Counted from the first letter of the stretch, positions 1 to 15,792 are shown. The stretch is DNA of 64,000 nucleotides from Deltaproteobacteria bacterium (GCA_026388695.1 JAPLJH010000062.1:1-64000), one strand, 5' to 3'. Notes: generated by a model not told the origin, from the sequence alone. Program-made: numbers and translations.

Positions 1-207
1 GTCGTATTCGATGGAAGCACAGCCGTAATACTCTCGCAGTCCAGAAAGAAGCGTCTCGCGCGCCACCCCGTATTCGGCATGGAGAATACGGGCCAGCGGC
101 ACCCCGCGCAATACCGCAGCTTGAGCTGCTTTAGCAAGCAAACCCGGCCGGAAAAGAGCAATCCCGGAGAAAGGCTGCATCAATGTCTCTGGATCAAGGT
201 GCGTCAT
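1..207 (-). CDS. GspE N-terminal-like protein (5' part only)
   Basis: This is the first 69 codons of a minus-strand gene that leaves the window at base 1. The ATG at 207 overlaps the end of the upstream triple-DUF202 gene by 14 bp, so the two are translationally linked. The visible protein resembles the MshEN/GspE N-terminal module: a helix-rich segment (PLARILHAEYG, then LLSGLREYYG) ends in the strand CASIEYD, like the 'YGxPxveyd' end of that module. The neighbouring DUF202 protein begins with the matching continuation (RYGCPWVEYQ), so the two are probably paralogues at their N-termini. The rest of the protein, and hence its function, cannot be seen. Confidence 0.6.
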   Translation of the reverse strand, partial: MTHLDPETLMQPFSGIALFRPGLLAKAAQAAVLRGVPLARILHAEYGVARETLLSGLREYYGCASIEYD

Positions 208-1735
208 GGCTGAACACCACGGTTTTCCAGAATCGGGCAGGCATGCCGTAATCGGGAAGGGTAATTTCCATCTCCCCATAACAATAGGGAAACTGGCGGC
301 GTGTCCGCTCGGCCGGAATGCTCCAAACAAAGCCGTCTCCCACAAGAAAGAGGCCTGACACTATCATCAGGTAGTTGAAAACCTCCCAGCCAATCCCGCC
401 GCTATCGTTAAAGAAAAGCACAAAGACCACCCCGATGGAAAAGAGGCTGAGTCCGGTGCGGATAAAGGCAAAACCGGTACGGGCCCGGGCCATGACCGTA
501 CGCAAACGGGCCATGACATTGCGGCGCTCGGCCAGTACGGTTCGCTCCAAGGCAACCCCGGTGGTCGCCCAGATTCCTGGAGCATGGGAGCTTTTCACCG
601 GCAGAATCATGGGGTTTATGACAACACCCGGCATGGCATGAGGGTGAGGGAAAAAATAATCCCAGATGGTGGGCATGCCGGTTTTTTGCCGCACCGACCT
701 CTGCCCTTCCACCCCGGCCCGCCGCCCGCGCAAATACCAGAAAAAGCCTTCCAAGGCCATAACCACGCCGATGCAGATGAGGCCAAGATCCAAGGCCAGC
801 CAGCGGCTCGCCTGAAATTGGCGCAGCAGACCAAGACCGAGGCTAATAAAAGCGAAGCCGGTGCGGGTAAACGCCAGGCCGGTCCGGACCTTGGCCATCC
901 TGGTTCTAAAACAGGCAAGCACCGTCCGCTCCTCGGCCAGATCGGTCCGGTCGCTGGCCAAATAACGCCGCCGCATCACTGGCGACAGAGCGGTCCAGCC
1001 TTGCCGTTGCGCTTCGGCTCCTGGCACCACCTGGCTCCGGCGAAACTCCGGGGCAATGTACTCGTTATATGCCTCGAGCACGCTGGTTCCACCGGTGGCG
1101 CCGGTATCGACGCAGGGAGGCAGCGTGGCGTAAATCGCCCGGGCCGGCAGATACCATTTGAGGCCGTCATAGACCATGATGAAGCCGCTTATCAGAAGGG
1201 GGATCTCCAAAAGCAGGTAATACCCGGCGCCAGCCAAACGAAGAAAGAGCAGCGCAATGGTGACAAAAGAAAGACCGGTCCGAATAAAAGCCAGGCCGGT
1301 ACGGCTCTTGGCCAGCAGAGTTCGGTAATGGGTAAACAGGGAACGACGCCCTGCCAGATAGGTACGGACCTTGGCCAGGGGGGTTCGCCCAGCTGTGGGC
1401 GGAAAGCCAGTGTTGAGATCCTGATTATGCTCGAAGATCCGAGTAAGATCGTCGGGCAAGGTGACCTGAAACTCGACCTCCTGCACCCCGAGCGTCTTGC
1501 GAACCTTGTCGGCCAAAATAGGACTGGGTGCGGTGGCAACCACAGTTGCCCGGCCATCAGTGACAATCCGCGGAAACCAGCCTTCCATTCGAAGCTGAGC
1601 CATATCGAGTTTCCACAAGAGCAACTGGGGACCAGTCACCGACTCCTGATACTCGACCCACGGGCAGCCATACCGATCACCAAGCGCCGCCAAGGCATGG
1701 AATTTTTCTAACCCTAAGGTCATACCATTGCTCAT
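194..1735 (-). CDS. Membrane protein with GspE-N-like head and three DUF202 units
   Basis: This 513-residue protein has an N-terminal soluble part (about 1-105) that looks like the GspE/PilB N-terminal domain. Three copies of a DUF202 (YidH-like) unit follow at about 117-200, 262-340 and 396-480. Each copy opens with arginine-rich heptad-like repeats (RTxLAxxRT, then RTGLAFIRTG) and continues into two hydrophobic helices, giving about six membrane segments. DUF202 proteins are small inner-membrane proteins of unknown function, usually with one unit; three in one chain behind a GspE-N head is unusual. Its ATG overlaps the stop of the dikinase-like gene upstream by 4 bp (ATGA), which places it in that operon. 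The function is unknown. Confidence 0.75.
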   Translation of the reverse strand: MSNGMTLGLEKFHALAALGDRYGCPWVEYQESVTGPQLLLWKLDMAQLRMEGWFPRIVTDGRATVVATAPSPILADKVRKTLGVQEVEFQVTLPDDLTRIFEHNQDLNTGFPPTAGRTPLAKVRTYLAGRRSLFTHYRTLLAKSRTGLAFIRTGLSFVTIALLFLRLAGAGYYLLLEIPLLISGFIMVYDGLKWYLPARAIYATLPPCVDTGATGGTSVLEAYNEYIAPEFRRSQVVPGAEAQRQGWTALSPVMRRRYLASDRTDLAEERTVLACFRTRMAKVRTGLAFTRTGFAFISLGLGLLRQFQASRWLALDLGLICIGVVMALEGFFWYLRGRRAGVEGQRSVRQKTGMPTIWDYFFPHPHAMPGVVINPMILPVKSSHAPGIWATTGVALERTVLAERRNVMARLRTVMARARTGFAFIRTGLSLFSIGVVFVLFFNDSGGIGWEVFNYLMIVSGLFLVGDGFVWSIPAERTRRQFPYCYGEMEITLPDYGMPARFWKTVVFSHDAP

Positions 1736-4335
1736 GTGGTGGCCTGCGCGACTTTTTCAATATTTATCAACCCGGAGAGAGCATAATCCCCCTCCATAAA
1801 GGCACGAGCCACGGCGGGAATCATCGCGTCAGTGCCCATGACCGCGTCGAGAAGACGGGTAAAGCCCAAAATCCTACCGACCATCACCAGCTTTTCCTCG
1901 ATGGCCTCCCTGTTAGCTCCTTGCAAAGAGGCGTTGACCAGATCCTCCTTGACATCAACAAAAAAACCATACTGTTCAAAAATTTCCCCGATGCACAGGG
2001 CCCGCCGCCGCCGCCGTTCAAGGCTGGTGCCGCCGCCCTTGAAGCGAAACTTGATGTGATTGCTGCGCGGCTCAGGGGAAGCCACCGCGTCGATCATAAT
2101 AAAGTGAAAATCCATGCGGGCATTCATGTTGCAATAATCGCGGCTAACCATGGCGTAATTGGGCATGCCGATGGGCCGCTCGGATTTCTGGTCGGTGATA
2201 AAGTTGGACATAACTGAACCCATGGGCGTTCCACCGGGCGGTGGCCCCCAGTGCAGACCAGGAGTGGTGATCCCCTGCCACAGCGCCTGGAAAGGCCGGG
2301 AGACCACAGATTCCGGCGAAATTCTGCGTCGTGGTGGCCCGGTTATGGCCAAGCCCCCGCCCATGTCGATGACGCTGACAAAGAAAGGCACCGGCGAATC
2401 GATGGCATGCACAATGCCAAGGTTTTCCTCCAACATCTCGTCGCCGGCGTGGAACATGGACAGCACCGCCTTTTCGTGGACAAAACGGACGATATCGTGG
2501 AGCGACTTGCATTCCATAATGGAGAAGGTTGGCCCGTAAGCGTCGGTGAGATGCAGCACCGTAACCAGCTCCTGCAATTCCCGATGTAATGGGGGCAGAG
2601 GCACACGCATCATGCGAAGCGATGGCGGACCATTCTGCCAGATCTTTTCCGTGGCAGCGATCTCTTCAGCGCTGGCCACATATACCCTGCCGTGGCTGCC
2701 GTCCACCGTGATCCACTGCCCATCGTGCACGATGTTGGACACATCTTGCAGACTGCAGACCATCGGAGTTTCCTGTTCACGAGCCACACAGGCCAGGTGA
2801 TCTGCCGGACTGCCCAGTTCCACCAGCACCGCCGCCACCTGACCCAAAAGGTTAGCCGCCTCGACAAAGCTCTGGTGCATGACCAACACCAAGGGCTCTT
2901 GAGGAATATTCTCAAAATCCCGCCGGCTTCTCACCACCAGCACCCGACCCGTGGCCCTGCCGCCTGAAGCGATTACCCCTTGAACCAAAAACGGGGCCTG
3001 CTCCTGCCAACGGTCACTTTCCTTTATACCTATGGTGGTCATGGGTCGCACCTGAAGGATGACTGCCACTCCCTTGCGATTCACCGCCCACTCCAGATCC
3101 AATGGCACGCCCTCGCGCCGTTCCAACTCCCTGCCCCAACCGGCAAGGGTATGCAGTTCCTCCTCGGTGAGCACAGGCTGAAGACAATCCTCTGGGGCAA
3201 GCTCTCGCCAGGCCACCCCGCCCGTTTCTTCGCAGACGAGGAATCTCTCTTTTCTGGCGATAGTGGAACGCTGCCAATCCACCCGGCCATCCATTCCGAC
3301 CAGATAGATATCCGTGGCAGCGCTGCCAGAAACCGCAGCCTCGCCCAGGCCCGGCACCGCGCTGATCAGCATCACACCACTTTCCGGCTCCTGGGGGGAG
3401 CGGGTCAGCAGGACACCCGCGGCGCGAGCCTCGACCATCTCAAGACAGAGCACCGCCATGTCGAAGCGCAAGGGGTCCAAGCCGGCATTGAGCCGGTAGG
3501 CAAGGCTGCGCGGATTGAAATTGCTGGCCACCACCTGTTTGAACGCCTCAAGAAACTGCGCCTCATCACGGACATTGAGCACCGAGCTGAATTGCCCAGC
3601 AAAGGAATGCTGGCTGCCATCCTCGCTAATGCTGCTGCTACGCACCGCCAGGGCCTTACCATTTTTAAAGTATGCACGGGCTGCAGTCGTGATTTCCTCG
3701 GCCAGGGTAGCGGGAATCACCGCTTGGTTGATCAAATCCTTTACCTGGGCAACGGTGGCAGCGGAAACGTGTTTTTCCTTGTCCGCCCCGAGGGAGGCCA
3801 ACAGGTGAACCAGTTCCAAAGAAAGCCCCGCATGTTCAAGAAAAAAGCGGCAGCCTGCCAGGGTAATCACAAAACCATCCGGCGACGGTAGAGCATTCTT
3901 GCGCAGTTCAGCCAAGGCCGCGGCCTTGTTGCCGGTTTGCCCCTTGAGGCCGCTGTGAATCTGGGCAAGTGGCAACACACAGGGAATATGCTCGGTGGAA
4001 ACGAGACTATTCAGCGTAGCCTGGAGGTGTTGGCTTATCGCTTGATGGGCGGCAAACAATCCTCTGTACTGACCGCTGGCCAGATTCTCCAATCGAGCGA
4101 TCATCTCGGCGGTTTCTTCGATCAGCCGGTGGACCAGTTGGGCCAAGCCCGTAGGATCACCTTGCATTCGCAGATGGATGCTGATTTCGGTAAGGCAATC
4201 CACAGCCCGATTGTTGCTGGCCAAAAGAGAACGAAACACATGGTAGCGTGCCTTGAGCAGTTGCTGCGAATCGATCTTCCGCTGCTGGCGAGCCTCCCGC
4301 AGTTTGGTAAATTGTTGGCCGAGCCAGCGCCGCAT
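1732..4335 (-). CDS. PEP/pyruvate-binding dikinase-like protein, paralogue 1
   Basis: This 867-residue protein has a helical N-terminus (1-120) and a PPDK/PPS-type ATP-grasp domain (about 125-435; AVRSSSISEDG, SFAGQ, ILQVRPM). A phosphohistidine swivel domain follows (about 450-555; the likely His is 513 in SPADHLACVARE). The last 280 residues match no domain I recognise and are shared with the two paralogues upstream. The PEP/pyruvate TIM barrel of PEP synthase is absent, so it should not be called ppsA. Family knowledge suggests ATP-dependent phosphorylation of the swivel His and transfer to an acceptor; the acceptor is unknown. The glycine-rich loop is divergent (TGNKAA where the others have VGGKNA or VGGKAA). 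The start directly abuts the stop of paralogue 2. Confidence 0.85.
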   Translation of the reverse strand: MRRWLGQQFTKLREARQQRKIDSQQLLKARYHVFRSLLASNNRAVDCLTEISIHLRMQGDPTGLAQLVHRLIEETAEMIARLENLASGQYRGLFAAHQAISQHLQATLNSLVSTEHIPCVLPLAQIHSGLKGQTGNKAAALAELRKNALPSPDGFVITLAGCRFFLEHAGLSLELVHLLASLGADKEKHVSAATVAQVKDLINQAVIPATLAEEITTAARAYFKNGKALAVRSSSISEDGSQHSFAGQFSSVLNVRDEAQFLEAFKQVVASNFNPRSLAYRLNAGLDPLRFDMAVLCLEMVEARAAGVLLTRSPQEPESGVMLISAVPGLGEAAVSGSAATDIYLVGMDGRVDWQRSTIARKERFLVCEETGGVAWRELAPEDCLQPVLTEEELHTLAGWGRELERREGVPLDLEWAVNRKGVAVILQVRPMTTIGIKESDRWQEQAPFLVQGVIASGGRATGRVLVVRSRRDFENIPQEPLVLVMHQSFVEAANLLGQVAAVLVELGSPADHLACVAREQETPMVCSLQDVSNIVHDGQWITVDGSHGRVYVASAEEIAATEKIWQNGPPSLRMMRVPLPPLHRELQELVTVLHLTDAYGPTFSIMECKSLHDIVRFVHEKAVLSMFHAGDEMLEENLGIVHAIDSPVPFFVSVIDMGGGLAITGPPRRRISPESVVSRPFQALWQGITTPGLHWGPPPGGTPMGSVMSNFITDQKSERPIGMPNYAMVSRDYCNMNARMDFHFIMIDAVASPEPRSNHIKFRFKGGGTSLERRRRRALCIGEIFEQYGFFVDVKEDLVNASLQGANREAIEEKLVMVGRILGFTRLLDAVMGTDAMIPAVARAFMEGDYALSGLINIEKVAQATT

Positions 4336-6882
4336 CTACCCTTCCTCCCCAACCTGATCCTGCTTGATGTTTAAAAGAAAACGCTGGAAGAACTCCTCGA
4401 TGGCTGCCTCGTCGCGCATCCGCACATCCAACTGGCGCGTAAAGGAGATCAACTCGCCCAGCCGACCCAGCACCCGTTCCATTCTGGGAATATCAAGGTT
4501 CCTGGCCTTGGCAATCACCAGATCGCCGGTGCGTTCCACCTTGAAATACATCCCGGAGAGAATGGCGCTGATCAACCGGGCCCGCCATTCACGTTTGGAC
4601 TTTTCAGCCATCCCGCCGGCAAAACGAAAATAGATGTAGTTGTTGTCCGGGTCCGGCGACATGTAGGCGTCCACCACGTTGAAATGGTAGCCCAGACGCA
4701 AACAGAGATTACAGTAATGCTCGGCGATGATTCCGAGGTTGTCGCCGGGATAGGCTGGCCCGGTGAGCAGGGCCAGCGGCTTGCTGATCCCGGAAAGAAT
4801 ATCCCTAAAACCCAACGACGCAGGCTCCTTGCCTCCCTGGTCATCTTTAAGAAAGCCATGTAAAATCGCGTTCAGCGGTCTGCTGTTCAGCATCTCCATG
4901 CTGATTGCTCCCTCGCCTGGCGCATCCGGCCTGATTCCCGCACCCAGGTCGATGACCCGCAGTTTGAGCGGGATCGGCAGGCGCACCGGCCTACTCAGTT
5001 CATCCTGGGAGCCGCTCTGGTCGGCGTGGAAATGGATCAGGGCGTCAATGGCCTTTTCGTGGGAAAAACGAAGGATATCGTGGAAGGTGCTGCAGTTTTC
5101 CGCTGTGAACTCCGCAGAGGTTGGATCGACCAAGGTGATGGGCGCCACCCAACGCAGGATGCGACGCAGGATGCGCAGTTCCTGGGAGGCGCGGTAGTCA
5201 TCCTCTTCCGAGGCGTGCAGCCGGACCAACCCCTCGATGATCCCCTGATAGACCTGCTTGTTTTCCACGTCCACCGTGACCTCCGCCCCGTCGGCAAGAA
5301 GCTTGGTGGCATCGCCGGTTCCAAACAGGGCCGGAGTCCGGTATTCACGGGCAATGGTAGCCAGATGTCCGGTGGGACCGCCGATCTCGGTGATGATGGC
5401 GGCAGCCCGCCAGACAATGGGGCTCAGTTGCGGGCTGGGGAAGCGCGCCACGGCAATGGCGCCCACCGGGAACTGCTCCGGGTCGGTGTTTTGATCCACA
5501 TGCACCACCCGACCCGCGGCAATGCCAAGATGGGCGACCTGCCCCTTGCCGGACATGAGCGGCGTGGCAGCAGCAAGCTCGGCAGCAAGTTCACCGGGAA
5601 GCGGCGGCGGCTTGGCGGGCAGGGACAGAGGACGACTCTGCAAAATCACCGGCTCATCCCCCAAGGCCCACTCAATATCCTGGGGGTCGCCAAAGGCTTT
5701 TTCCAACAACAGGGATTGCTCGGCGAGCCGGGCCAATTCCTTGGGCATCAAGGTTGCCGAACCACGCCGCAAACCGTTGGGCAACATAGCAAACGCTTCC
5801 TTGCCGCCGGAAAAGGAATCCGACATGGCGATCTCGCTGGTCAGCGGAGTGAAAGGCCAGACCCGGCTCATGACAAAACGGTCGGCCTGCCTGCGTCCGG
5901 AGACCAGATCGTGGGCCGCGCCGCGTAGGGCGGTGACGAGCAACTGATTCTTTTCCGGCGCTTCCGGGTCCCGACTGTAAGTGACTCCGGCAACGCGGGC
6001 GTGAATCATCGGCTGCACCCCGGCAGCCATGGGAATGTCTCGGCTGCTGGCCTTTGGGCCTAGATACTCCAGGGCCGCGACCGAAAAACGGGAGGCAATC
6101 ACCTGACGGTAAGCATCGAGCACCGAGGATAACTCAGGCCGCACCTCAAGCACAGAATGAAACTGCCCGGCAAAACTGCGGGTTTCGGCATCCTCACCCA
6201 CCCCGCTTGAGCGGACTGCCAGGGGCACTGCCCCCCCTGCCCGCTTAAGCAATTGCCGCAGCTCGTCTTGCACCGACGCCACCAGCGGCTCGGAGAAACG
6301 AGCCTGATCGAGCAAACGGGTAATGGCCTCGGAACGCTCTCGGTTGGTGCCAGGTCCGGCGCAGATGGCGTCGATGGCGACAAAAAGTCCGTTTGCCTCC
6401 ATAAATTCACGGTAGGCAGCAGCGGTGATGGCAAAACCATCCGGGGTCCTGAGATGCAAACGGTTGCGGATTTCACTCAAGGTGGCGTTTTTGCCGCCCA
6501 CCAGCTCTTCGAAATCGCTGTTGATCAGCGCATAGGCCAGGGTAATATTGCGGTCGTACGGCCCGGCATATTCCAAGGCCAGCCCGGAAAGTTTCCCGGC
6601 AATCTCCTCGTAACGGTCGTACAGAGCAAGATAACGATTGTTGGTCAGACTACCAAGGCAAGAGACTACCTCCCGCACCAGCTCGTTCAACTCAGCCACG
6701 GCCTCGCCTAAAAACTTCCGGTCAAAAACGTACTCTCCTGCCAGGGCTCCTTCCATGCGGCCAATCTTTTCCAGCACCGCGTTGTTCAAAGAAAGCAGTC
6801 GGCGGAACAGCCGAAAGGAGACGGCAAACGAGGAGGTTTCTCCCTGTGCCGCTTTGGAAAAAGGATTGGCGGGAAGATTCAT
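4336..6882 (-). CDS. PEP/pyruvate-binding dikinase-like protein, paralogue 2
   Basis: This 848-residue protein has the same layout as its neighbours. It has a helical head (1-120), an ATP-grasp domain (about 125-420; LVGGKNATLSEI, LAVRSSGVGEDAETRSFAGQ, DIEWALG, ILQSRPL) and a swivel domain with His506 in GGPTGHLATIARE. The unassigned C-terminal domain (about 570-848) contains CSTFHDILRFSHEKA, an IDLGAGI motif and YFRFAGG. There is no PEP-binding barrel. The ATG lies one base after the stop of the histidine kinase and its stop abuts the ATG of paralogue 1, so it sits mid-operon. The biochemical role of an ATP-dependent phosphotransferase is inferred from the domains; the substrate cannot be read from the sequence. 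Confidence 0.85.
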   Translation of the reverse strand: MNLPANPFSKAAQGETSSFAVSFRLFRRLLSLNNAVLEKIGRMEGALAGEYVFDRKFLGEAVAELNELVREVVSCLGSLTNNRYLALYDRYEEIAGKLSGLALEYAGPYDRNITLAYALINSDFEELVGGKNATLSEIRNRLHLRTPDGFAITAAAYREFMEANGLFVAIDAICAGPGTNRERSEAITRLLDQARFSEPLVASVQDELRQLLKRAGGAVPLAVRSSGVGEDAETRSFAGQFHSVLEVRPELSSVLDAYRQVIASRFSVAALEYLGPKASSRDIPMAAGVQPMIHARVAGVTYSRDPEAPEKNQLLVTALRGAAHDLVSGRRQADRFVMSRVWPFTPLTSEIAMSDSFSGGKEAFAMLPNGLRRGSATLMPKELARLAEQSLLLEKAFGDPQDIEWALGDEPVILQSRPLSLPAKPPPLPGELAAELAAATPLMSGKGQVAHLGIAAGRVVHVDQNTDPEQFPVGAIAVARFPSPQLSPIVWRAAAIITEIGGPTGHLATIAREYRTPALFGTGDATKLLADGAEVTVDVENKQVYQGIIEGLVRLHASEEDDYRASQELRILRRILRWVAPITLVDPTSAEFTAENCSTFHDILRFSHEKAIDALIHFHADQSGSQDELSRPVRLPIPLKLRVIDLGAGIRPDAPGEGAISMEMLNSRPLNAILHGFLKDDQGGKEPASLGFRDILSGISKPLALLTGPAYPGDNLGIIAEHYCNLCLRLGYHFNVVDAYMSPDPDNNYIYFRFAGGMAEKSKREWRARLISAILSGMYFKVERTGDLVIAKARNLDIPRMERVLGRLGELISFTRQLDVRMRDEAAIEEFFQRFLLNIKQDQVGEEG

Positions 6883-6883
6883 T

Positions 6884-8386
6884 TCAGGCGTCCCTGTGCA
6901 ACCGGGGCAAGATGATTCGGAAGGTCGTGCCTCTACCCGGCTCGCTGTCTACCTCGATATCGCCGCCGTGGTCCTTGACAATGGCGTAGCTCAAGGACAG
7001 GCCCAGGCCGGTGCCCTCATTCTTGGTGGTGAAAAACGGGTCAAAGATATGGGTCAAGGCCTCGGGGGTGATGCCTGCCCCGGTATCGCTGACCGCGATC
7101 CGCGCCTCTTTTTCCTGGACGCTCACGGCCAGATCAAGGCGACCATCGGGCTGCATGGCCTGAACCGCATTGAGCATCAGGTTGACCAGCACCTGCTGCA
7201 ATTGGTTGGGGTTGCCGCTGATCAGCACCGGCTGCGCGGGATGGTCGTAATGGTACGCAATACCACCCAAGCGGAACTGATTCTTCACCAGGGTAATGGA
7301 ATTTTCCACCAGCGCGACAAGATCCACCGTCTCCAGGGTGTTGCTTTTACGAGTCCGAGAAAATTCAAGCAAATGGTGCACCACCTCTCTGGCCCGGTCC
7401 GACTGAACCAGGATATCGCGCACCATGTCCATCCGTTCGCTGCACGCCAGGTTGGGAAGATCCTCCAGCAGCACCTCAGCGGTGAGCGAGATATTGTTCA
7501 GCGGGTTGTTGATCTCGTGGGCGATACCCGCCGTCACCTTGCCGATGGCGGCAAGCTTTTCCGACTGCACCAGTTGGTTCTGCTTGGCATTGAGGGCCTG
7601 GAGCATGAGGTTTAAGGAGTTGACCAGCTCGATCCCCTCCACCGAACAAAGAACCTCATCACTTATCGGAATGGAGCTCATCTCTCCCTGCATGATCCTG
7701 GCCGAAGCCTCGCGGATGGCCTTGAGGGGCAGCATGATCCAGCGCATCATGTACAGAATCAGAACGGCGCCAAGCCCCACCGCCAGAGCGAGAATAAGCA
7801 CCGCAGTTTTCTGGTAGCCCGCGACCTGGCGTTCCACCCGAACCCTCGCCCTGGCATCCATGTCGAAGATACTCTTGGTGATGTCCTGGCCGTGTTTGCG
7901 CAGGGCATTTTCCAGGGCTTGCTTGTTTCGTGGATTCAGGTCGTCTTGGAGAAGCTGGCGGGAAATAGCCTCGTACTGGCCAAGTTCCTTGTCATACAGG
8001 GATTCCAGCTCGCTTTTGTTTTCAAGGAGAACCGCCTTCACCGCAGCAATGGAGGCCCGGACTTGGTCCACATAGTCCAGAGCGTTGAGCAAATCCTTCC
8101 GGTCGTTGAACAGGAAATAATTCTTCTCGTAACGCCTGATTTCGAGCACCTTCTGGTTCAGCTCGTAAAACGATTCGATGATCCGAATCTTGTCTTCCAT
8201 CCGCCAAAGGGCAAAGGTGGCGGTAGCGATGGCTATGATGCTCAGGCCCGCGACAATGCCGATCATGACCAGAAGCTTCCCCCGGATGGAACGGATTCCA
8301 GGAAAAAGAAACCGGCAGGGAGGAGAACTTCCCGCCTGATTGGCTGTTTTCTGCGCCGCGTGGGGTGTGGGAAGATTGGGACTCAT
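6884..8386 (-). CDS. Membrane sensor histidine kinase
   Basis: This 500-residue kinase has TM1 at about 38-61, a periplasmic helical sensor at about 62-192 (four-helix-like, rich in charged heptads) and TM2 at about 193-214. HAMP, HisKA and HATPase_c domains follow. The phospho-acceptor is His290 in GIAHEINNPL, and the ATP lid shows DTGAGI and GTGLGLSLS. The ATG overlaps the stop of the receiver gene by 4 bp, and the next dikinase gene begins one base after its stop. Kinase and receiver therefore form a two-component pair embedded between dikinase-like genes. The signal is unknown. Confidence 0.9.
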   Translation of the reverse strand: MSPNLPTPHAAQKTANQAGSSPPCRFLFPGIRSIRGKLLVMIGIVAGLSIIAIATATFALWRMEDKIRIIESFYELNQKVLEIRRYEKNYFLFNDRKDLLNALDYVDQVRASIAAVKAVLLENKSELESLYDKELGQYEAISRQLLQDDLNPRNKQALENALRKHGQDITKSIFDMDARARVRVERQVAGYQKTAVLILALAVGLGAVLILYMMRWIMLPLKAIREASARIMQGEMSSIPISDEVLCSVEGIELVNSLNLMLQALNAKQNQLVQSEKLAAIGKVTAGIAHEINNPLNNISLTAEVLLEDLPNLACSERMDMVRDILVQSDRAREVVHHLLEFSRTRKSNTLETVDLVALVENSITLVKNQFRLGGIAYHYDHPAQPVLISGNPNQLQQVLVNLMLNAVQAMQPDGRLDLAVSVQEKEARIAVSDTGAGITPEALTHIFDPFFTTKNEGTGLGLSLSYAIVKDHGGDIEVDSEPGRGTTFRIILPRLHRDA

Positions 8387-8769
8387 TCTTTTGCTCTATC
8401 GGCTTCCATGGCGCGATAAATAACCTGTTTCAATTCGTCCAGCCGAAACGGCTTGGCCAGAAAGGCGAAAACCCCCTCCTGTTGCGCCAGTTCCGCTGTA
8501 TCCGGCGAGGCATAGCCGGTGATGATGATCACTCGGGTCTTGGGGTTCATGGCCCGGACCCTTTTGAGCACCTCGATGCCGTCAATCCCTTCCATCTTAA
8601 GATCGGTCACCACGATGTCAAAGGGTTTTTCTGCAATGGCCGCAAGGGCTGCGGCAGAATCGGTATAGGTCTCGATCTCAAAGCCGATCTTGCCGAATAC
8701 CTGCTTGAGCCGCTTGCCGACAATGGGTTCGTCATCCACCACCAGCAGTCGCATGTTTGTTTCGCTCAT
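8383..8769 (-). CDS. Single-domain response regulator
   Basis: This is a 128-residue receiver with no output domain: acidic pair Asp12-Asp13, phospho-acceptor Asp56 in VVTDLKM, and conserved Lys in FLAKPF. The open frame extends upstream to 8844, but the ATG at 8769 follows a clear GGGAGGAAGG Shine-Dalgarno and gives a normal receiver N-terminus, so it is preferred. It overlaps the kinase gene by ATGA. With no output domain it probably signals by protein contact, and the flanking dikinase-like proteins are the obvious candidate targets; that is inference. Confidence 0.9.
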   Translation of the reverse strand: MSETNMRLLVVDDEPIVGKRLKQVFGKIGFEIETYTDSAAALAAIAEKPFDIVVTDLKMEGIDGIEVLKRVRAMNPKTRVIIITGYASPDTAELAQQEGVFAFLAKPFRLDELKQVIYRAMEADRAKE

Positions 8770-8829
8770 TGTACCTTCCTCCCTGCTCTCAGTTATCGAC
8801 GACATAACGTAAAAAAAACTCAACAATCT

Positions 8830-8950
8830 GTAACTGTCCAGCAACGCCGCAGATGCGCGACAGAGGCCTGAGAGCTATACACTTGGTATGCGAACAGGCC
8901 GATAACAGCAGCGAAGCGGCGAAGCAGATGCGGTGTTGCTGGACTGTTAC
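8830..8950. repeat. Intergenic inverted-repeat element (MITE-like)
   Basis: The ends of this 121-bp stretch are imperfect inverted copies of each other. The left arm (8830-8855) begins GTAACTGTCCAGCAAC, and the right arm (8925-8950), read on the minus strand, begins GTAACAGTCCAGCAAC. The interior contains further short palindromes (AGGCCT; GGCCTG with CAGGCC). The right end contains the stop codon of dikinase paralogue 3, so the element lies exactly at the 3' end of that gene and fills the gap before the receiver gene. Whether it is a repeat family, an mRNA processing site or a terminator cannot be told from one copy. Confidence 0.55.
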
Positions 8951-11532
8951 CCGGCAACAATGCCGTAATCGCCCATAAGAAATGCCTCGGCATACCTGGC
9001 TACGGCCTGATCATCCGTCATCTGCACGTCCAACTGCCTGGTGAAGCCGATCAAGCGGCCCAGGATATCCAGGGTACGCTCCATTTCCGACTGCGACAGA
9101 TTGCTGGTCCGGGCAATGACAAGATCCCCCTTGGTCTGGATACTGAAATCAAAGGCCTCCAAGATGGTGGCGATGAGAGTCGCCCGCCGAGAACGCTTGG
9201 CAATATCGGTGGCCCCGCCCAAAAAGCGGAAATAAATATGATTGTCGCGCTCCACGTCGTGACAGAAGGCGTCGATAATATTGAAGTGATACCCAAACCG
9301 GAAGCACAGGTTCACATAGGTTTCGCTGATGATGGCAATGTTGTGCCCGGTGTACTGCCCGGAAAGGGTGTCCTGCGGGGTGGTCATCATGCTGTGCATC
9401 ATGTCGCGGAAACTCACCGACATGGCCTCCTGATGCCAAGCCCCGGGGAACATCATGCCCTGGAGGATGGCCCGGAAGGGAATCGAGCGGATGGCAGAAA
9501 ATGGAATTTGGTCTCGCGGGGCGTCCGGGGCAATGCCGCCGCCGATATCAATGGCAAGGATACCGGCTTGAATGGGCAAGTCCAGCCGTCTGGCCAAGCC
9601 GCCGGGCAGACAGCGGTCATCCCGCCCCAGTTCCACCAGATGCAGCACTGCGGTTTCATGGATGAAGCGCAACACGTCGTGGAAGGTTCGGCACCCTTCG
9701 GGTCTAAATTCTTGCATCAGCGGATCAACCAGATTTAAGCGGGAAACCTCCCGGAGAATGCGGCGCAGCATGCGAAACTCCGGGGCCATGTGCAAGTCCA
9801 TGGTGGTGGTCGCCTGATAGGTGAGGAGCTCCACTACTCTACCCCGATAAATCCGGCGATCCTCGGCGTCCACGGTTATTTCCTCGCCGGGAACCACCTT
9901 AACCATGATATCTGGAACCCCGACCAAGCAGGGAACCCGCAACTCACGGCACAATGTGGCCATGTGGCTCGCCGGGGTGCCCACCTCGGTGACAATGGCT
10001 GCGGCCCGGTGCATGACCTGAACAAATTGAGAGGAATCGCGATGGCTGATCAGTACCGCGCCCTCGGGAAAATCCTTGAGATCGGCCAGAGTTTCCACCC
10101 AGAAAGCCGGACCAGCGCCGATGCCCTGCTGGGCCACCCGTCCTGCATCCACCGCAATAAGTTCATAGCCTTCGAGTTTTTCAGAAAGCTTTGGTTTTCC
10201 TTTTTCGCTCTCCGTGATCAACAGAGGTCTGGACTGCAGAATATAGAGAGCACCCTGGGGGTCTAAGGTCCATTCGATGTCCTGGGGCCGTTTGAAAAAA
10301 GTTTCCAAGTGAATGGCGACTCCGGCAAGCTCCAAAAGGGTCTGCTCGTCGAGACAGGGAACCCCGCTCTGCCCGTTCGGCACCGCTCGCATCGTCAGCC
10401 CGCCATCGGCCGTCCCTGTTGAGCGCAGGGCTTCATGCTTTGCGGCAATTACCCGCTCAATGACCTGCGGCGGCTCACCCTTGCTGAGCCGGAAAAAATC
10501 CGTAGGCACCTGTCCCTCAACCACAGCCTGCCCTTGTCCAAGAGCGCCGACCGCTACCATACTCTGCGAACCGGGCTCCATGGGATCAATGGAATAGATA
10601 ATGCCGCTGGCTTGCGCCCGGATCATGCGCTGGCAGCAGGCAGCAATGGACATAGGACTGCCTTCGGGGAAAACCTGCCGCCGGTAGCGGATAGCCTTGG
10701 CGCCGAAGAGACTGGCCGCCACCAGCAGATAGGCGCGATACACCGCCTCGGCTTGAGGAGGAACCTGCAATTCGGAATGAAACTGCCCGGCAAAGGAGAA
10801 ATCCATATCCTCTTCCTGGGCACTGCTGCGGACCGCGAGAAAAAGCGGGGGTTCGCTGCTGGCCGCAAGCCTGGTAATCGCCTCGGTCAGGGTATCAAGA
10901 AAACCGGATGGCGGCTCAGCCCGAAGCACCTTTTCCTGGAGAATACGACGCAACGCCTCAAGCCCTTCCTCGTCGGGAAGATGCTCGGAAAGCAGCAGCT
11001 CAAACCGATCAAACTCCGGCCTTAGCCCGTTCAAATCAAGCAGATCGTGGAACAACCGGGTGGTGATGACAAACCCTTCCGGTACCCGAACCTTGGGGTT
11101 ATGGAGCAGCTCGGAAAGATGCGCGGCCTTGCCACCCACCAGGGGCCAATGCCGGGTCTCAACCTCGGTAAGCCAGAGCAGGGGCGGACCTTCCCGGTCA
11201 TCCCGTTTATTGAGGATCGCCCGGACCCGGGCCTCCATGGGGGTAAACACCTCATGCAGCGCCACACACTGGTTTTGGGTCAGGATGTTGATTGCGGTAA
11301 GGGCACGACGCATGGCGGCGATCATCTCCTCAACCGTGGCTTCCACATAGCGGAGATCAAAAAGATACTCACCGCTGAGTTTCTCCCCCATGTCGGCGAT
11401 GAGTTCCAGAGCCTGGTTGTTTGCCTTGAGCACCTCGCGGAACTGGGAGAATATCAGGGGGAGCGGCCGACAGGCCTTGGGCGTGAACCAGCCTGTGGCG
11501 GAGAAACCTTTCAGGAGATCACGGAGAGCCAT
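8947..11532 (-). CDS. PEP/pyruvate-binding dikinase-like protein, paralogue 3
   Basis: This 861-residue protein is the first gene of the dikinase operon. It has a helical head (1-125), an ATP-grasp domain (about 128-440; LVGGKAAHLSEL, LAVRSSAQEEDMDFSFAGQ, DIEWTL, ILQSRPL) and a swivel domain with His523 in GTPASHMATLCRE. The shared C-terminal domain (about 585-861) contains CRTFHDVLRFIHETA and YFRFLGGATD. No pyruvate/PEP barrel is present. The ATG at 11532 has only a weak upstream AGGAC. The gene follows an intrinsic-terminator-like structure at 11547-11598, so its own promoter or read-through is required. About 180 bp containing an inverted-repeat element separate it from the receiver gene, the loosest junction in the operon. 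Confidence 0.85.
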   Translation of the reverse strand: MALRDLLKGFSATGWFTPKACRPLPLIFSQFREVLKANNQALELIADMGEKLSGEYLFDLRYVEATVEEMIAAMRRALTAINILTQNQCVALHEVFTPMEARVRAILNKRDDREGPPLLWLTEVETRHWPLVGGKAAHLSELLHNPKVRVPEGFVITTRLFHDLLDLNGLRPEFDRFELLLSEHLPDEEGLEALRRILQEKVLRAEPPSGFLDTLTEAITRLAASSEPPLFLAVRSSAQEEDMDFSFAGQFHSELQVPPQAEAVYRAYLLVAASLFGAKAIRYRRQVFPEGSPMSIAACCQRMIRAQASGIIYSIDPMEPGSQSMVAVGALGQGQAVVEGQVPTDFFRLSKGEPPQVIERVIAAKHEALRSTGTADGGLTMRAVPNGQSGVPCLDEQTLLELAGVAIHLETFFKRPQDIEWTLDPQGALYILQSRPLLITESEKGKPKLSEKLEGYELIAVDAGRVAQQGIGAGPAFWVETLADLKDFPEGAVLISHRDSSQFVQVMHRAAAIVTEVGTPASHMATLCRELRVPCLVGVPDIMVKVVPGEEITVDAEDRRIYRGRVVELLTYQATTTMDLHMAPEFRMLRRILREVSRLNLVDPLMQEFRPEGCRTFHDVLRFIHETAVLHLVELGRDDRCLPGGLARRLDLPIQAGILAIDIGGGIAPDAPRDQIPFSAIRSIPFRAILQGMMFPGAWHQEAMSVSFRDMMHSMMTTPQDTLSGQYTGHNIAIISETYVNLCFRFGYHFNIIDAFCHDVERDNHIYFRFLGGATDIAKRSRRATLIATILEAFDFSIQTKGDLVIARTSNLSQSEMERTLDILGRLIGFTRQLDVQMTDDQAVARYAEAFLMGDYGIVAG

Positions 11533-11621: not shown

Positions 11622-12416
11622 TCAGTGGCTCCCGCCACCCTTTTTGAAGATGGCACCAACAGCCAAGCCCGCGAGCAAAGCGATGACTACCGCCATTATG
11701 CCATACAATCCAGCCTGATCAAAGGCCATTTTTGACAGGGCCGCAACCATCCCGGTGCTCTTGACCTCAAAATGGGTCGAGGCCCGATCAACCACGTTCC
11801 CGTCTCTGGCGGCCAGCACCTCCACCGTGTATATGCCAGGAGGGGCCTGATACGGCCAGGCAACGTCCACTTTGTACGTGTTACCAGCCTCGCCATGCGT
11901 CCGGACAACGGTTCCTTCCTGGACGTTGTAAACATTTTCCTCTTTTTTGAACTTAAGGTATTCGTCGAACCATTTTCCATCCGCCGGATTCCCGGCGCTG
12001 TCTTCAATACGGATATGCCCGCGCAGGGCGTCATAGCCGAGCAGATACTGATTACGGTCAGCAGGACCAAGAATACGGTCCAGATCGGCGGTGCTGTGCA
12101 ACAAATACACACGGGGCGCATCCTTGAACTCAAGGGAGCCTTTTTTCATCCAGACCAGACCGCCGACCTTTTCCTTGTATTTCAAGGCAGTATCCGCCGG
12201 TTCGCTGGTAATGGTGACAACCAGGTCGTCGGTGCTGGCACTCTGGCCGGTGATGGAGAGCTGGGCGCCATGATAGGTGAAGGTTATGGGAATATTGTCC
12301 GGGGTGACCGAGCAGGTGAGAGCCTGGGCGGCAGGGACAGGCAAGATGGCAAGGCCAAGCAGAACAATGGCCGCCACGGCCAGATACCGGGGGGAATTCA
12401 TGAGGGTGCGTTTCAT
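11622..12416 (-). CDS. TIGR02186-family membrane-anchored protein
   Basis: This protein of 264 residues has a signal-anchor/secretion signal at about 8-33, a long extracytoplasmic beta-rich part, and one C-terminal membrane helix (about 235-256; VVIALLAGLAVGAIF) with a short positive tail. It matches my memory of the TIGR02186 (Alph_Pro_TM) family, which is usually found beside a TauE/SafE permease as here. The frame is open to 12434, but the ATG at 12416 sits behind GGGAGG and one base after the permease stop, so it is chosen. A role assisting sulfur-compound export or import is inferred only from the permease partnership. Confidence 0.75.
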   Translation of the reverse strand: MKRTLMNSPRYLAVAAIVLLGLAILPVPAAQALTCSVTPDNIPITFTYHGAQLSITGQSASTDDLVVTITSEPADTALKYKEKVGGLVWMKKGSLEFKDAPRVYLLHSTADLDRILGPADRNQYLLGYDALRGHIRIEDSAGNPADGKWFDEYLKFKKEENVYNVQEGTVVRTHGEAGNTYKVDVAWPYQAPPGIYTVEVLAARDGNVVDRASTHFEVKSTGMVAALSKMAFDQAGLYGIMAVVIALLAGLAVGAIFKKGGGSH

Positions 12417-12417
12417 C

Positions 12418-13347
12418 TTAGTGGCCTCCCGCATAGGAAAGAAGAATGGAAGGCTCCAGCACCAGTTCCAAGATAATCTTGACCGTTACGGCAAGAACAA
12501 TGATGGAAAGCAGAATCTTCAACTGATCGCCATGGAGCTTGCGCCCCAGAACGGTGCCAATCTGCGCGCCGAACACCGAACCTATCAGAAGAAGCAGGGC
12601 CAGCATAAAATCAACCGTGTGGTTGGAGTAGGCCTGGAGATAGGTAACCTCAATGCAGGTGAAGAGAATCTGGAAGAGGCTGGTCCCCACCACCACATGC
12701 ATGGGCATCCGCAACATGTAGATCATCACCGGCACCATGAGAAAACCACCACCTACCCCCATGATTGCGGCAAGAACCCCGACAAAGGTGCCCAGGAAAA
12801 GCGGAACCAGAGCAGAGTGGGTGACCCCGGATTTCTCGAAGTAGGTCTGCATGGGCAGGGCCGCGAAAAAGCCGCCCTTCTTTTGTTTCGGCGCGGCCGT
12901 CGGCGCGGTTGCCGCCGGGGCTTTCTTGTTTTTGTGCATAGCATTGAGGCTTTCAACGAACATGAAGCTGCCGACCAGGCCCAACATGACCACATAGGTC
13001 ATCTTGATAAGGAAATCCGCGCCGCCGGAGGCACGTAGAATCTTGATTACCTGTACCCCCGCCGCTCCGCCAGCAAAACCGCCGATCAGAAGATAAAGGC
13101 CCATCTTGAAATCCACGTTGCCGAGGCGCCAGTGGGAAATGGTTCCTGAAGCGGAAGCCGCCACAATCTGGTTGGCATCCGTTGCCGCCGCGATTGTCGG
13201 CGGAATGCCGATCATCATCAGAAGCGGGGTCATGAGAAACCCTCCGCCCACCCCAAAGAGGCCGGACAACAGTCCGACTCCAAGTCCCAGGCCCATCACC
13301 ACCAGATAATTCACGCTGGTGAGGGCTATTGGCAGATACATGTACAT
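12418..13347 (-). CDS. TauE/SafE-family sulfite/organosulfur permease
   Basis: This protein of 309 residues has about eight hydrophobic helices in two repeats. Each repeat carries the family signature GVGGGFLM (residues near 33-40 and again near 198-205). A cytoplasmic linker rich in Ala, Pro and Lys joins the halves. TauE/SafE proteins move sulfite, taurine-derived or other small sulfur anions across the inner membrane. The ATG at 13347 has an AGGAGG Shine-Dalgarno six bases upstream. It is the middle gene of a three-gene operon whose sigma-54-type promoter lies in front of the Usp-like gene. Confidence 0.85.
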   Translation of the reverse strand: MYMYLPIALTSVNYLVVMGLGLGVGLLSGLFGVGGGFLMTPLLMMIGIPPTIAAATDANQIVAASASGTISHWRLGNVDFKMGLYLLIGGFAGGAAGVQVIKILRASGGADFLIKMTYVVMLGLVGSFMFVESLNAMHKNKKAPAATAPTAAPKQKKGGFFAALPMQTYFEKSGVTHSALVPLFLGTFVGVLAAIMGVGGGFLMVPVMIYMLRMPMHVVVGTSLFQILFTCIEVTYLQAYSNHTVDFMLALLLLIGSVFGAQIGTVLGRKLHGDQLKILLSIIVLAVTVKIILELVLEPSILLSYAGGH

Positions 13348-13359
13348 CGTACTCCTCCT

Positions 13360-13917
13360 TTACTCATTTTTATTGTGTTGCAATACAGTTGAGAAAATGT
13401 CGGTCCTTTCACAGTCCGCCAGGGAAAATTCCCCCGGCTTCGAAGATTCAGATCCGGCTGTTAACTTCGGAATAGCACGTTCAAGGGTTGATGCATCCCA
13501 TGGGGTCATGATAACAGACCACAAGTCGGGCAGATACCAATTTTCGCTGGACTGAAGCTGCTTGCGGAGCAAATTTACCCAGACGGTCTTGCGATCGAAC
13601 CCTTTCCGGTCATTGACCCCAAGCACCAGACAGAATATCCGGTGCGCACACAGAAAGCGGATCAGGGGTTTGCCCGTCAATCTTTCCAAAATATGCGTAT
13701 GAACTCTTACCCCTTCCTGGTTGCCAAGCCTAGTTGCCAGAGAAACAAATTGTTCCTGTGTCTCTCGAGCCGCCGATCGCTTTCTGTCAGCCTTCTGATC
13801 CGCCCTACAAACGGTATGCAGAATTCCCGTAGTCCGCCGGGCAAGGGCAACGGCATGGATGGTGGCGGAAAGATCAACGCTGGCGCCAGTCAAGAGGAGT
13901 GCAATACCAGCTTCCAT
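13360..13917 (-). CDS. UspA-like small cytoplasmic protein
   Basis: A 185-residue protein with a hydrophobic first strand (GIALLLTG) followed by a helix (HAVALARRTTG). This resembles the start of universal stress proteins, but no nucleotide-binding GxxG motif is obvious, so the assignment is tentative. The open frame extends to 13968. The start at 13917 is preferred because TTAGGAG lies seven bases upstream and because the predicted sigma-54 transcription start (near 13953) falls inside the longer version. It is the first gene of the operon with the TauE permease and the TIGR02186 protein. Confidence 0.55.
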   Translation of the reverse strand: MEAGIALLLTGASVDLSATIHAVALARRTTGILHTVCRADQKADRKRSAARETQEQFVSLATRLGNQEGVRVHTHILERLTGKPLIRFLCAHRIFCLVLGVNDRKGFDRKTVWVNLLRKQLQSSENWYLPDLWSVIMTPWDASTLERAIPKLTAGSESSKPGEFSLADCERTDIFSTVLQHNKNE

Positions 13918-13963: not shown

Positions 13964-13979
13964 AGCATTTAGTGTGCCA
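13964..13979 (-). promoter_or_regulatory. Sigma-54 promoter of the Usp/TauE/TIGR02186 operon
   Basis: The minus strand reads TGGCACACTAAATGCT. It has the invariant GG (-24) and GC (-12) separated by exactly ten bases, with a full TGGCAC block. Transcription would begin near 13953, giving a 36-base leader before the ATG at 13917. Confidence 0.75.
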
Positions 13980-14045
13980 CCAAGACCATCTCGTTGTTTA
14001 CAGGTTGTTTTAACTAATTCACTGGCACAAAGTCAATGACTCGAC

Positions 14046-14129
14046 TGTTCAGTGTTGAAACAACTTTTTTGCAACTCATTGTAATTCAATGGTTTTTCAA
14101 AGTTGAAACAACTGTTTCCCGTTGAAACA
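14046..14129. promoter_or_regulatory. Three upstream activator sites for an NtrC-type regulator
   Basis: Three 17-bp sites end in GTTGAAACA: TGTTCAGTGTTGAAACA (14046-14062), TTTTCAAAGTTGAAACA (14094-14110) and TGTTTCCCGTTGAAACA (14113-14129). The last is a perfect 6-bp inverted repeat around five bases. They lie about 95-175 bp upstream of the predicted sigma-54 transcription start, the usual place for enhancer sites, and between that promoter and the NtrC-type activator gene. The activator that binds them is inferred. Confidence 0.7.
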
Positions 14130-14171: not shown

Positions 14172-15536
14172 TTACTTCTCGGAAAACAAATTAAGTTCCT
14201 TGAGACGCCGCCACAAGGTGGTGCGGGAGATGCCAAGCAAGCGAGCGGTTTTGGTCTGGTTGAAACCGGTGCGGCGATACACATCAGTGATGTGCTCCTG
14301 TTCCAAGACCTTTAGGTGGCTGGTGTTTTTTTCCGGAACTGGGGGCTGGATTTCCGCAAAGAAAATATCCGGGGGAAGATCACTGCCCGTGAGCACCGGC
14401 TCACGGGAAAGTGCGACCGCCCGTTCCACAATATTTTGCAGCTCCCGGACATTGCCGGGGAAGGTGTACGAAGAAAGCGCCGCCAGAAAATCCGCACCGA
14501 TTTCCGGCACGGGTTTGCCGAATTGGGTGGCAATGAGGGTGACAAAATGCTCCACAAGCAGCGGAATGTCCTCTTGTCGTTTGCGTAGCGGCGGGATATT
14601 GATCATCACCACCTTCAAACGATAGAAAAGATCCTGGCGAAACTCGCCTGCGGCGATCATCTTCTCAATATCCCGGTTGGTTGCGGCAATGAGCCGCACA
14701 TTGATACTGACCGGGGCAACTCCGCCCACCCGCAAGAGGGTCCGCTCCTGGATAACCCGAAGCAGCTTGATCTGCATGGGTATGGGCATCTCCCCAACCT
14801 CATCGAGAAAGACGGTGCCCCCGTTGGCTGCCTCAAGCAACCCAAGCTTGGTGCTCACCGCGCCGGTAAAGGCGCCCTTTTCGTGACCAAAAAGCTCGTT
14901 GGCCACCAGCTCTTCACTGAATGCCCCGCAATTAAAGGGGATAAAGGGGTGCTGGCCGCGACCGCTAGTACTGTGGAGGGCCTTGGCCACAAGCTCCTTG
15001 CCGGTGCCGCTTTCCCCCTGGATGAGCACGTTGCAGTTAAGCGGCGCGATCTGGCGGATGGTTTTGAAAATCTCTTGCATGGCCGGGGAGTTCCCGATGA
15101 TCCCGGCAAAACGATCGACAGGGCCTGGGTCCGTAAGATCAGGGGCGGATTTGCCGGAATAGCGCAAGGCATCGCTGATGGTGTTACGCAATTCCTCAAG
15201 CTTAAACGGCTTGGCCAGGTAGTGGAAAGCCCCGGCCTTCATGGCCTGGACCGCATGGTCAACAGCGGCATAGCCGGTCATCAGGATGACCTTGGTCTGG
15301 GGGGCCAGCATGGTGACCCGCTGGAGAATTTCCATGCCGTCCGCATCGGTAAGCCGGACATCCGTAACCAGCACCTCGGGCGGATGTTCGGCAATCCGGG
15401 GCATTGCTTCTCCCGCAGAGATAAAACCTTCCACCTCATAGCCGTCCTTGGCCAGGGCCTGAACAAGGCGCCGGACCGTGACGATTTCATCATCAAGGAT
15501 ATAGACGCGGGGCTTTGGCGGGGCGTTATCTGACAT
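14172..15536 (-). CDS. NtrC-family sigma-54-dependent response regulator
   Basis: This protein of 454 residues has three parts. A receiver (about 9-120) carries the Asp in VTDVRL. An AAA+ domain (about 145-370) has Walker A GESGTGKE, the sigma-54 contact loop GAFTGA, and an arginine-rich second region of homology. A Fis-type helix-turn-helix sits at the C-terminus (NQTKTARLLGISRTTLWRRL). The frame is open to 15752, but the upstream residues do not look like protein and the ATG at 15536 gives a normal receiver start. No kinase is directly adjacent; the nearest is at 17026-19095. It probably activates the sigma-54 promoter at 13964-13979 through the repeats at 14046-14129. Confidence 0.9.
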   Translation of the reverse strand: MSDNAPPKPRVYILDDEIVTVRRLVQALAKDGYEVEGFISAGEAMPRIAEHPPEVLVTDVRLTDADGMEILQRVTMLAPQTKVILMTGYAAVDHAVQAMKAGAFHYLAKPFKLEELRNTISDALRYSGKSAPDLTDPGPVDRFAGIIGNSPAMQEIFKTIRQIAPLNCNVLIQGESGTGKELVAKALHSTSGRGQHPFIPFNCGAFSEELVANELFGHEKGAFTGAVSTKLGLLEAANGGTVFLDEVGEMPIPMQIKLLRVIQERTLLRVGGVAPVSINVRLIAATNRDIEKMIAAGEFRQDLFYRLKVVMINIPPLRKRQEDIPLLVEHFVTLIATQFGKPVPEIGADFLAALSSYTFPGNVRELQNIVERAVALSREPVLTGSDLPPDIFFAEIQPPVPEKNTSHLKVLEQEHITDVYRRTGFNQTKTARLLGISRTTLWRRLKELNLFSEK

Positions 15537-15717
15537 GACAAAGATATTCCGAAAAAAGTTGGGGCCGAGGCTGCGGGAGTTTCTCCCCTGAGATGACCAT
15601 GCCAACCTAGCACGCTCCCCTTCACCTTGCAAATCGATTTTTTTCTTTAAAGCCAAGACAAGGGACAGACATCCCTCCCCTAACCCTGGTGAAAAAGCCC
15701 ATGGCAGACTTTGGAGG

Positions 15718-15746
15718 TTGACGATCCCCCCTGAAAGTTTCATATT
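15718..15746 (+). promoter_or_regulatory. Possible sigma-70-like promoter
   Basis: TTGACG (15718-15723), a 17-base spacer and CATATT (15741-15746) point rightwards at the interrupted small ORF starting at 15793. The -35 matches 5 of 6 and the -10 matches 4 of 6, so the support is moderate. Confidence 0.35.
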
Positions 15747-15792
15747 CAACAATTATACCTACACAACCATAAAAAATGGTCACAGTGAACCC

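Follow-up and report, generated by a model that had tools for sequence, protein, structure and literature searches.

Characterized relatives within the dikinase superfamily, such as RPH, HpeHI, and PpsAB, phosphorylate small molecules, splitting ATP to AMP through a phosphohistidine relay (PMC12167813). In PEP synthase and PPDK, an ATP-grasp domain followed by a swivel phosphohistidine domain is accompanied by a PEP/pyruvate barrel, and in Enzyme I of the phosphotransferase system (PTS) a swivel of the same fold is fed by PEP via the barrel. The closest described gene cluster is that of Desulfovibrio (DVU0251-DVU0245; Dde_0597-0605), where DVU0246 encodes a protein with PPDK_N and swivel domains, DVU0247 is a 360-bp receiver gene, and DVU0251 encodes TauE (Korte 2014, PMC4001038). 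D. vulgaris transposon mutants in DVU0246, DVU0247, DVU0250, and DVU0251 grew similarly whether or not 100 mM nitrate was present and showed no gain in nitrite; Korte et al. proposed a leaky thiosulfate transporter, the thiosulfate link being an unpublished remark in that work (PMC4001038). In a separate study, Ddes_1643 (a sigma54 protein) and Ddes_1644 (a dikinase) changed together under NO (PMC5701242). A search of open-access literature found nothing on TIGR02186, nor on these dikinases beyond Korte 2014.

The window analyzed here is a 64,000-nucleotide stretch from a Deltaproteobacteria bacterium (GCA_026388695.1, JAPLJH010000062.1:1-64000), which carries three dikinase-like paralogues (A, B, and C). 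Paralogue A shares the order of ATP-grasp then swivel with PEP synthase and PPDK, and PEP synthase matches its residues 117 to 573 at 3.7e-115. In the window dikinases, however, a different C-terminal domain takes the place of the barrel, and a helical domain is added at the N terminus. Paralogue A scored below the PEP synthase/PPDK equivalog cut-offs, with 271 bits where the cut-off was 598 and 257 bits where it was 739.75. With RPH, HpeHI, and PpsAB, the window proteins share the ATP-grasp domain (Z score of 33.6 to 5hv6), the swivel histidine, and the presumed ATP-to-AMP chemistry. In RPH the order is ATP-grasp, substrate domain, and swivel last, whereas in the window proteins the swivel comes directly after the ATP-grasp and the C-terminal domain is last. 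The small-molecule dikinases apparently also have another acceptor domain; the window proteins reached at most 205 bits against the cut-off of 999 of the rifampin phosphotransferase NCBIfam. The swivel also resembles that of Enzyme I (2wqd; Z score, 17.5; 1.9 Å over 123 residues) but is fed by an ATP-grasp domain rather than by PEP. Judged by sequence and against the open-access literature, these proteins constitute a new family of the dikinase superfamily.

Gene organization of the window

The genes and elements of the unit, with the evidence for each in brackets, are as follows.

1..207, minus strand: second MshEN/DUF202 protein, 5′ start only (full homologue at L050:9343-10611)
194..1735, minus strand: membrane protein with an MshEN-type domain and three DUF202 units (Pfam)
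1732..4335, minus strand: dikinase-like paralogue C, 867 aa (Pfam, motifs, tree)
4336..6882, minus strand: dikinase-like paralogue B, 848 aa (Pfam, motifs, tree)
6884..8386, minus strand: membrane histidine kinase (Pfam HisKA and HATPase_c; H-box AHEINNP in the translation)
8383..8769, minus strand: stand-alone receiver, 128 aa, ATG at 8769 (Pfam Response_reg)
8830..8950, no strand: palindromic dispersed repeat between paralogue A and the receiver (27-nt arms; 41 genome matches)
8947..11532, minus strand: dikinase-like paralogue A, 861 aa (PPDK_N and PEP-utilizers; clade A; model pLDDT of 87.8)
11622..12434, minus strand: TIGR02186/Alph_Pro_TM membrane protein, overlapping the TauE gene (Pfam PF09608, 3.3e-51)
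12418..13347, minus strand: TauE/TSUP anion transporter (Pfam TauE, 2.3e-49)
13360..13917, minus strand: degenerate universal-stress-protein (Usp)-like gene, putative operon gene 1 (Usp-like proteins at this place in relatives)
14172..15752, minus strand: NtrC-type sigma54 activator with a receiver domain, next gene upstream (Pfam Response_reg, Sigma54_activat, and HTH_8)

All six complete minus-strand genes described at 194-11532 in the initial annotation were recovered as ORFs at those places, and Pfam confirmed the membrane kinase, the receiver without an output domain, and the triple-DUF202 protein among them. Their junctions, in order from 194 to 11532, are a 4-bp overlap, 0 bp, 1 bp, a 4-bp overlap, and 177 bp, and are thus tight with the single exception already annotated. 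A seventh gene does start at 207 and continues beyond the window; as base 1 of the window is also base 1 of contig C53, this gene is truncated by the assembly. In the close relative L050, the corresponding gene encodes a second MshEN/DUF202 protein, and after it comes another set of kinase, receiver, and dikinase genes, the last encoding paralogue D. The 177-bp gap beside paralogue A is occupied by the dispersed palindromic repeat, present in approximately 40 copies in the genome, while the receiver-dikinase junction in relatives mostly lies within ∼50 bp or overlaps. An operon break at this gap was therefore ruled out in favor of repeat insertion. The Usp-like gene at 13360..13917 had no Pfam match.

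Architecture of the dikinase-like proteins

The three large proteins had been described as ATP-grasp plus phosphohistidine proteins devoid of a PEP barrel, and all three indeed matched Pfam PPDK_N (4.5e-65, 2e-57, and 2.2e-68) together with PEP-utilizers. In each, an N-terminal helical stretch, the ATP-grasp domain, the swivel, and a C-terminal domain follow in that order, located in paralogue A as follows.

11197..11463, minus strand: N-terminal helical domain, residues 24-112 (helices 24-51, 60-84, and 91-107 in the model)
10186..11145, minus strand: ATP-grasp domain, residues 130-449 (Pfam PPDK_N; RSS, SFAGQ, QDIEW, and LQxRP motifs kept)
9862..10071, minus strand: swivel domain, residues 488-557 (Pfam PEP-utilizers)
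9964..9966, minus strand: codon of the phosphohistidine, His523 (His in 186/189 sequences)
8974..9783, minus strand: C-terminal domain, residues 584-853, the presumed acceptor site (invariant residues)

The ATP-grasp motifs were kept across 190 aligned family members, and the half of the dikinase that loads the phosphohistidine looks intact, with a new acceptor half. Solved relatives found by sequence span only residues ∼106 to 588 of A; as they begin near residues 106 to 117, the N-terminal helical domain lies outside them, and it is a candidate docking site for the receiver.

In the place of the PEP barrel, all three proteins share a C-terminal domain of ∼270 residues, which, when modelled alone, gave a pLDDT of 81.6. 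Seven of its residues (D619, H625, H749, G772, G773, R783, and G825) were invariant in all 190 aligned sequences, and H618, R622, E626, N764, F770, D803, and D835 were kept in ∼98% or more of these. The domain was not a recognizable PEP barrel, as an hhalign comparison with the barrel of the PEP synthase encoded in the same genome returned a probability of 0.2% and no Pfam barrel was found. Comparison with PDB sequences gave no relative (best E value, 0.56), a Foldseek structure search yielded nothing convincing (best E value, 0.034), and VIA-align reached a best Z score of 6.0, a value that unrelated folds also attain. The fold of the rifampin-binding domain was absent among the matches listed for the C-terminal domain model, and a Pfam search of 66 members found no family that matched the domain in more than one. 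The C-terminal domain thus appears to be new, and no Pfam model covers it. Given that this near-invariant site recurs in many paralogues, most of which have signalling genes of their own, the acceptor is probably common to all, as would be expected of one signal or carrier used in common and not of a range of catabolic substrates.

Distribution of the family and conservation of its neighborhood

The C-terminal domain was present in 107/297 genomes sampled from the phylum of the window, many with several copies, and in 41/59 genomes from the family of a Desulfovibrio MAG, with up to 9 copies each. Named matches also occurred in Nitrospirota, Abyssobacteria, Zixibacteria, and Latescibacterota; the family hence spans several phyla, and many of its carriers are sulfate reducers. 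The dikinase tree resolved clades A, A2, B, C, D, E, F, and N. L118, a Desulfovibrio MAG, also had the A-B-C set, and an Abyssobacteria locus (L095) had B plus C, which marks the three as distinct paralogues of old origin; all three look active from their sequences.

Neighborhoods were scored, with profiles built for this analysis, at the 80 loci nearest to A and at a wider set of 60, the latter hand-picked among other families of the phylum and the family to which L118 belongs. A two-component gene lay within 3.5 kb of 108/119 dikinase copies in the nearest set and 66/73 in the wider set (174/192 overall), so that the synteny of dikinase, receiver, and kinase proved to be conserved across genera and in several phyla. 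The receiver was the gene most often adjoining the dikinase (70/80 loci). TauE was encoded within 3.5 kb at 44/80 nearest and 28/60 wider loci, TIGR02186 nearby at 42/80 and 15/60, and a sigma54 activator within 3.5 kb at 33/80 and 19/60. The 2.58-Mb genome of the window has 120 matches to the receiver, of which ∼26 lie in short frames, and 10 to TauE, which corresponds to ∼0.1 stand-alone receivers and ∼0.04 TauE genes expected per 9.6 kb of sequence, these chance densities being those of the window genome, from which other genomes differ somewhat. The association of both receiver and TauE with the dikinase is far above chance. The initial annotation had also counted the DUF202 gene among the partners, but this did not hold generally: DUF202 was found nearby at 30/80 nearest loci and at only 1/60 of the wider set. 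DUF202 was therefore rejected as a general partner and is bound to particular sub-lineages. The recurrent membrane partner is instead the TauE/TSUP transporter, whose gene lies outside the 194-11532 region first annotated.

Putative control elements upstream of the operon

Between the NtrC-type and Usp-like genes, a putative sigma54 promoter element and three enhancer-like palindromes were located.

13965..13979, minus strand: sigma54 -24/-12 promoter element TGGCACACTAAATGC, one mismatch
14046..14062, minus strand: enhancer-like palindrome 3, weaker (3 mismatches; TGTTTCA-N3-TGAAACA-like)
14094..14110, minus strand: enhancer-like palindrome 2, weaker (3 mismatches; TGTTTCA-N3-TGAAACA-like)
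14113..14129, minus strand: enhancer-like palindrome 1, TGTTTCAACGGGAAACA (1 mismatch to TGTTTCA-N3-TGAAACA)

Palindrome 1 was the only match with up to one mismatch in the 2.58-Mb genome. Across 62 loci led by TauE, a sigma54 element was found within 1050 bp upstream in 30 (0.45/kb, compared with 0.024/kb elsewhere) and a palindrome within 1100 bp upstream in 46 (1.32/kb versus 0.073/kb). Both are thus enriched ∼18-fold upstream of TauE genes, although the enrichment of the palindrome is partly circular, since its motif was derived from a subset of the same 62 loci. Palindromes accompanied 45 of the 52 loci with TIGR02186 compared with 1 of the 10 without it. Predicted sigma54-type control elements therefore precede the operon, which on their position would begin near 13,917; the Usp-like, TauE, and TIGR02186 genes are part of the same operon, and the unit exceeds 194-11532. 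The NtrC-type gene (14172..15752) would be its controlling activator. In the D. vulgaris sigma54 regulome paper, there was no mention of this unit or of the palindrome.

Probable coupling of the receiver to the dikinase

Receivers adjacent to dikinases have kept D12, D13, D56, T84, and K106, with Asp in 105/105 at the three acidic positions, T/S in 104/105, and K in 104/105. When the receiver tree was labelled by the clade of the partner dikinase, 6 changes were required, the minimum for 7 labels, compared with a mean of 47.5 and a lowest value of 41 across 200 label shuffles. Within the window's own family, receivers of A and D were split by 1 change (shuffled mean, 5.4). As the receivers sort by dikinase clade, the pairs have been together since before the lineages split. 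This supports a working receiver-dikinase pair, although sorting by clade is a sign of co-inheritance, for which an operon left intact would be enough. No fusions of receiver or kinase to dikinase, of the Rosetta-stone kind, were present among the dikinase copies scanned.

Control of one or more of the dikinases by the receiver had been proposed in the initial annotation. Synteny, clade sorting, the kept residues, and the shared phenotype of the D. vulgaris mutants all point in that direction, making the coupling a well-supported inference; direct contact between the two proteins is a further step that we infer.

Some dikinases were located inside frames of 1087 to 1833 aa with no other Pfam domain, which look like spurious upstream extensions.

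Relation to the Desulfovibrio nitrate cluster

Like the window, the nitrate cluster encodes TauE, a histidine kinase, a stand-alone receiver, and a protein that combines PPDK_N with a swivel. The gene order at locus L182 (TauE, unknown, PtxB-type binding protein, kinase, receiver, dikinase, and phosphatase) equals the published layout of the nitrate cluster, and at L200 the receiver gene measures 360 bp and a small gene matches as well. At both loci the dikinase has the N- and C-terminal domains seen in the window proteins, and these dikinases make up clade N. Based on gene order, gene size, and Pfam content, the nitrate cluster appears to be the same system as that of the window. There are also differences: the nitrate-cluster dikinases fall in clade N, whereas A, B, and C of the window are in other supported clades, and PtxB and the dual-specificity phosphatase are not among the window operon genes, which include TIGR02186, three dikinases, and DUF202 proteins in their place. 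By the shared nitrate phenotype, dikinase and receiver belong to the same pathway as the transporter, although that phenotype is one of clade N and not of the clades of the window. DVU0246 is annotated as 744 aa, compared with 817 to 834 aa for the genes that occupy this position in the loci analyzed here.

Proposed mechanism and alternatives

With moderate confidence, we propose that the unit is an operon driven by sigma54 and encoding a phosphotransferase module under two-component control, which runs from histidine kinase to receiver to dikinase and is tied to a TSUP anion transporter. The membrane histidine kinase would phosphorylate the stand-alone receiver, as suggested by its canonical residues, and the receiver would then act by contact on the dikinase, probably at the N-terminal helical domain. 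Given the intact motifs and the chemistry of the superfamily, the dikinase is predicted to split ATP to AMP and place the beta-phosphate onto His523 of the swivel, from where it would be passed to an acceptor that the new C-terminal domain binds. The output may support either the uptake of an oxyanion that TauE and the TIGR02186 protein handle or a response to it, the best guess for this anion being a sulfur oxyanion such as thiosulfate; the output could possibly be PTS-like or second-messenger-like. More tentatively, the receivers could switch paralogous dikinases that all make one shared phosphorylated product (a small signal or protein carrier), much as diguanylate cyclases do, with this product gating TSUP transport.

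A purely metabolic role, in which TauE imports a sulfonate, sulfur oxyanion, or phenolic that the dikinases phosphorylate first and the two-component genes set only expression, would agree with the transporter gene adjoining the kinase and with RPH, HpeHI, and PpsAB acting on small molecules, in the case of HpeHI and PpsAB phenolics (PMC12167813). Such a role seems unlikely, as up to nine copies per genome share the near-invariant acceptor site, unlike enzymes for different substrates. Expression control is already supplied by the sigma54 activator and enhancer sites, which fits this explanation; yet the gene most often adjacent is a receiver that, having no output domain, cannot act on DNA. 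Moreover, loss of the dikinase equals loss of the transporter in nitrate resistance, which would be unexpected if the enzyme handled only the imported molecule. The common phenotype of transporter, dikinase, and receiver mutants would suit a dikinase that is the ATP-fed counterpart of Enzyme I and whose phosphate is passed to a protein (TauE, Usp, or DUF202) to gate or energize transport, as would the match of the swivel to Enzyme I (2wqd) and the conservation of the C-terminal site across paralogues. No HPr-like or EII-like carrier was recognized among the neighboring families, however, nor did Pfam recognize the PEP barrel of Enzyme I in the window dikinases, and we consider this arrangement distinctly unlikely.

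Single-domain receivers often are phosphate sinks or relays, and with kinase and sigma54-activator genes close by, the receiver could serve the kinases as a sink, or as a relay to the activator, sharing with the dikinase a condition of expression only. This is quite improbable, because receivers adjoin dikinases also where no sigma54 activator is nearby, and because they sort by dikinase clade. Should receivers control these enzymes, as in the module that we favor, two-component signalling would gain an enzymatic output, in which phosphate from ATP is passed via a phosphohistidine, and the coupling, if real, would be a new kind of two-component output. It would also offer a mechanism for the unexplained nitrate-resistance cluster of Desulfovibrio and so bear on the nitrate treatment of oil-field souring.

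MshEN/DUF202 proteins

The DUF202 proteins begin with an MshEN/GSPII-type domain. The 24-residue RLG motif for c-di-GMP (PMC5013675) was searched for in strict and relaxed forms and was present in neither form in any of 41 DUF202 proteins; control by c-di-GMP via MshEN was rejected on this basis. MshEN-type domains were found on DUF202 proteins in both the phylum of the window and Nitrospirota, and in the latter the components occur in a single run of TauE-TIGR02186-Usp-Usp-DUF202-DUF202-HK-REC-dikinase.

Regulatory and repeat sequences of the dikinase operon

A sigma54 promoter and palindromes resembling TGTTTCA-N3-TGAAACA are kept phylum-wide upstream of the TauE-TIGR02186-dikinase operons, named for their anion transporter, membrane protein and dikinase genes. 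These operons probably form one regulon, of which no account was found in the open-access literature searched. Loci lacking TIGR02186 seldom carried the palindrome (1/10). Within the operon, the gap separating the dikinase A gene from the receiver gene carries an inserted MITE-like repeat, with ∼40 copies in the window's genome.

Features of the window and of sampled dikinase loci (L-numbers)
Window 13965-14129: sigma54 promoter, preceded by three palindromes that resemble TGTTTCA-N3-TGAAACA
Window 8830-8950: MITE-like palindromic dispersed repeat, arms of 27 nt
L046:7349-12428 (G000:C74, same genome as the window): second dikinase locus, clade E of the dikinase tree
L182:8221-9369: gene for a dual-specificity phosphatase, overlapping that of the dikinase, nitrate-cluster layout
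L217:3147-4433: 428-aa protein matching only the dikinase N-terminal helical domain
L078:1-375: contig-end frame joining a dikinase C-terminal-domain piece to a DUF202 piece

Other dikinase loci

The clade E locus encodes a kinase, a receiver, a TauE-like protein, a 232-aa protein, the dikinase and a receiver. The L182 phosphatase is possibly a counter-enzyme. In L217, a complete dikinase adjoins the 428-aa protein, which may serve as a separate partner for docking or regulation. The joined L078 frame probably reflects misassembly or deletion. The dikinase of L122, titled Thermoleophilia bacterium in its record, clusters in the tree with Desulfobacterota members of clade D; this contig was probably misbinned or the gene transferred.
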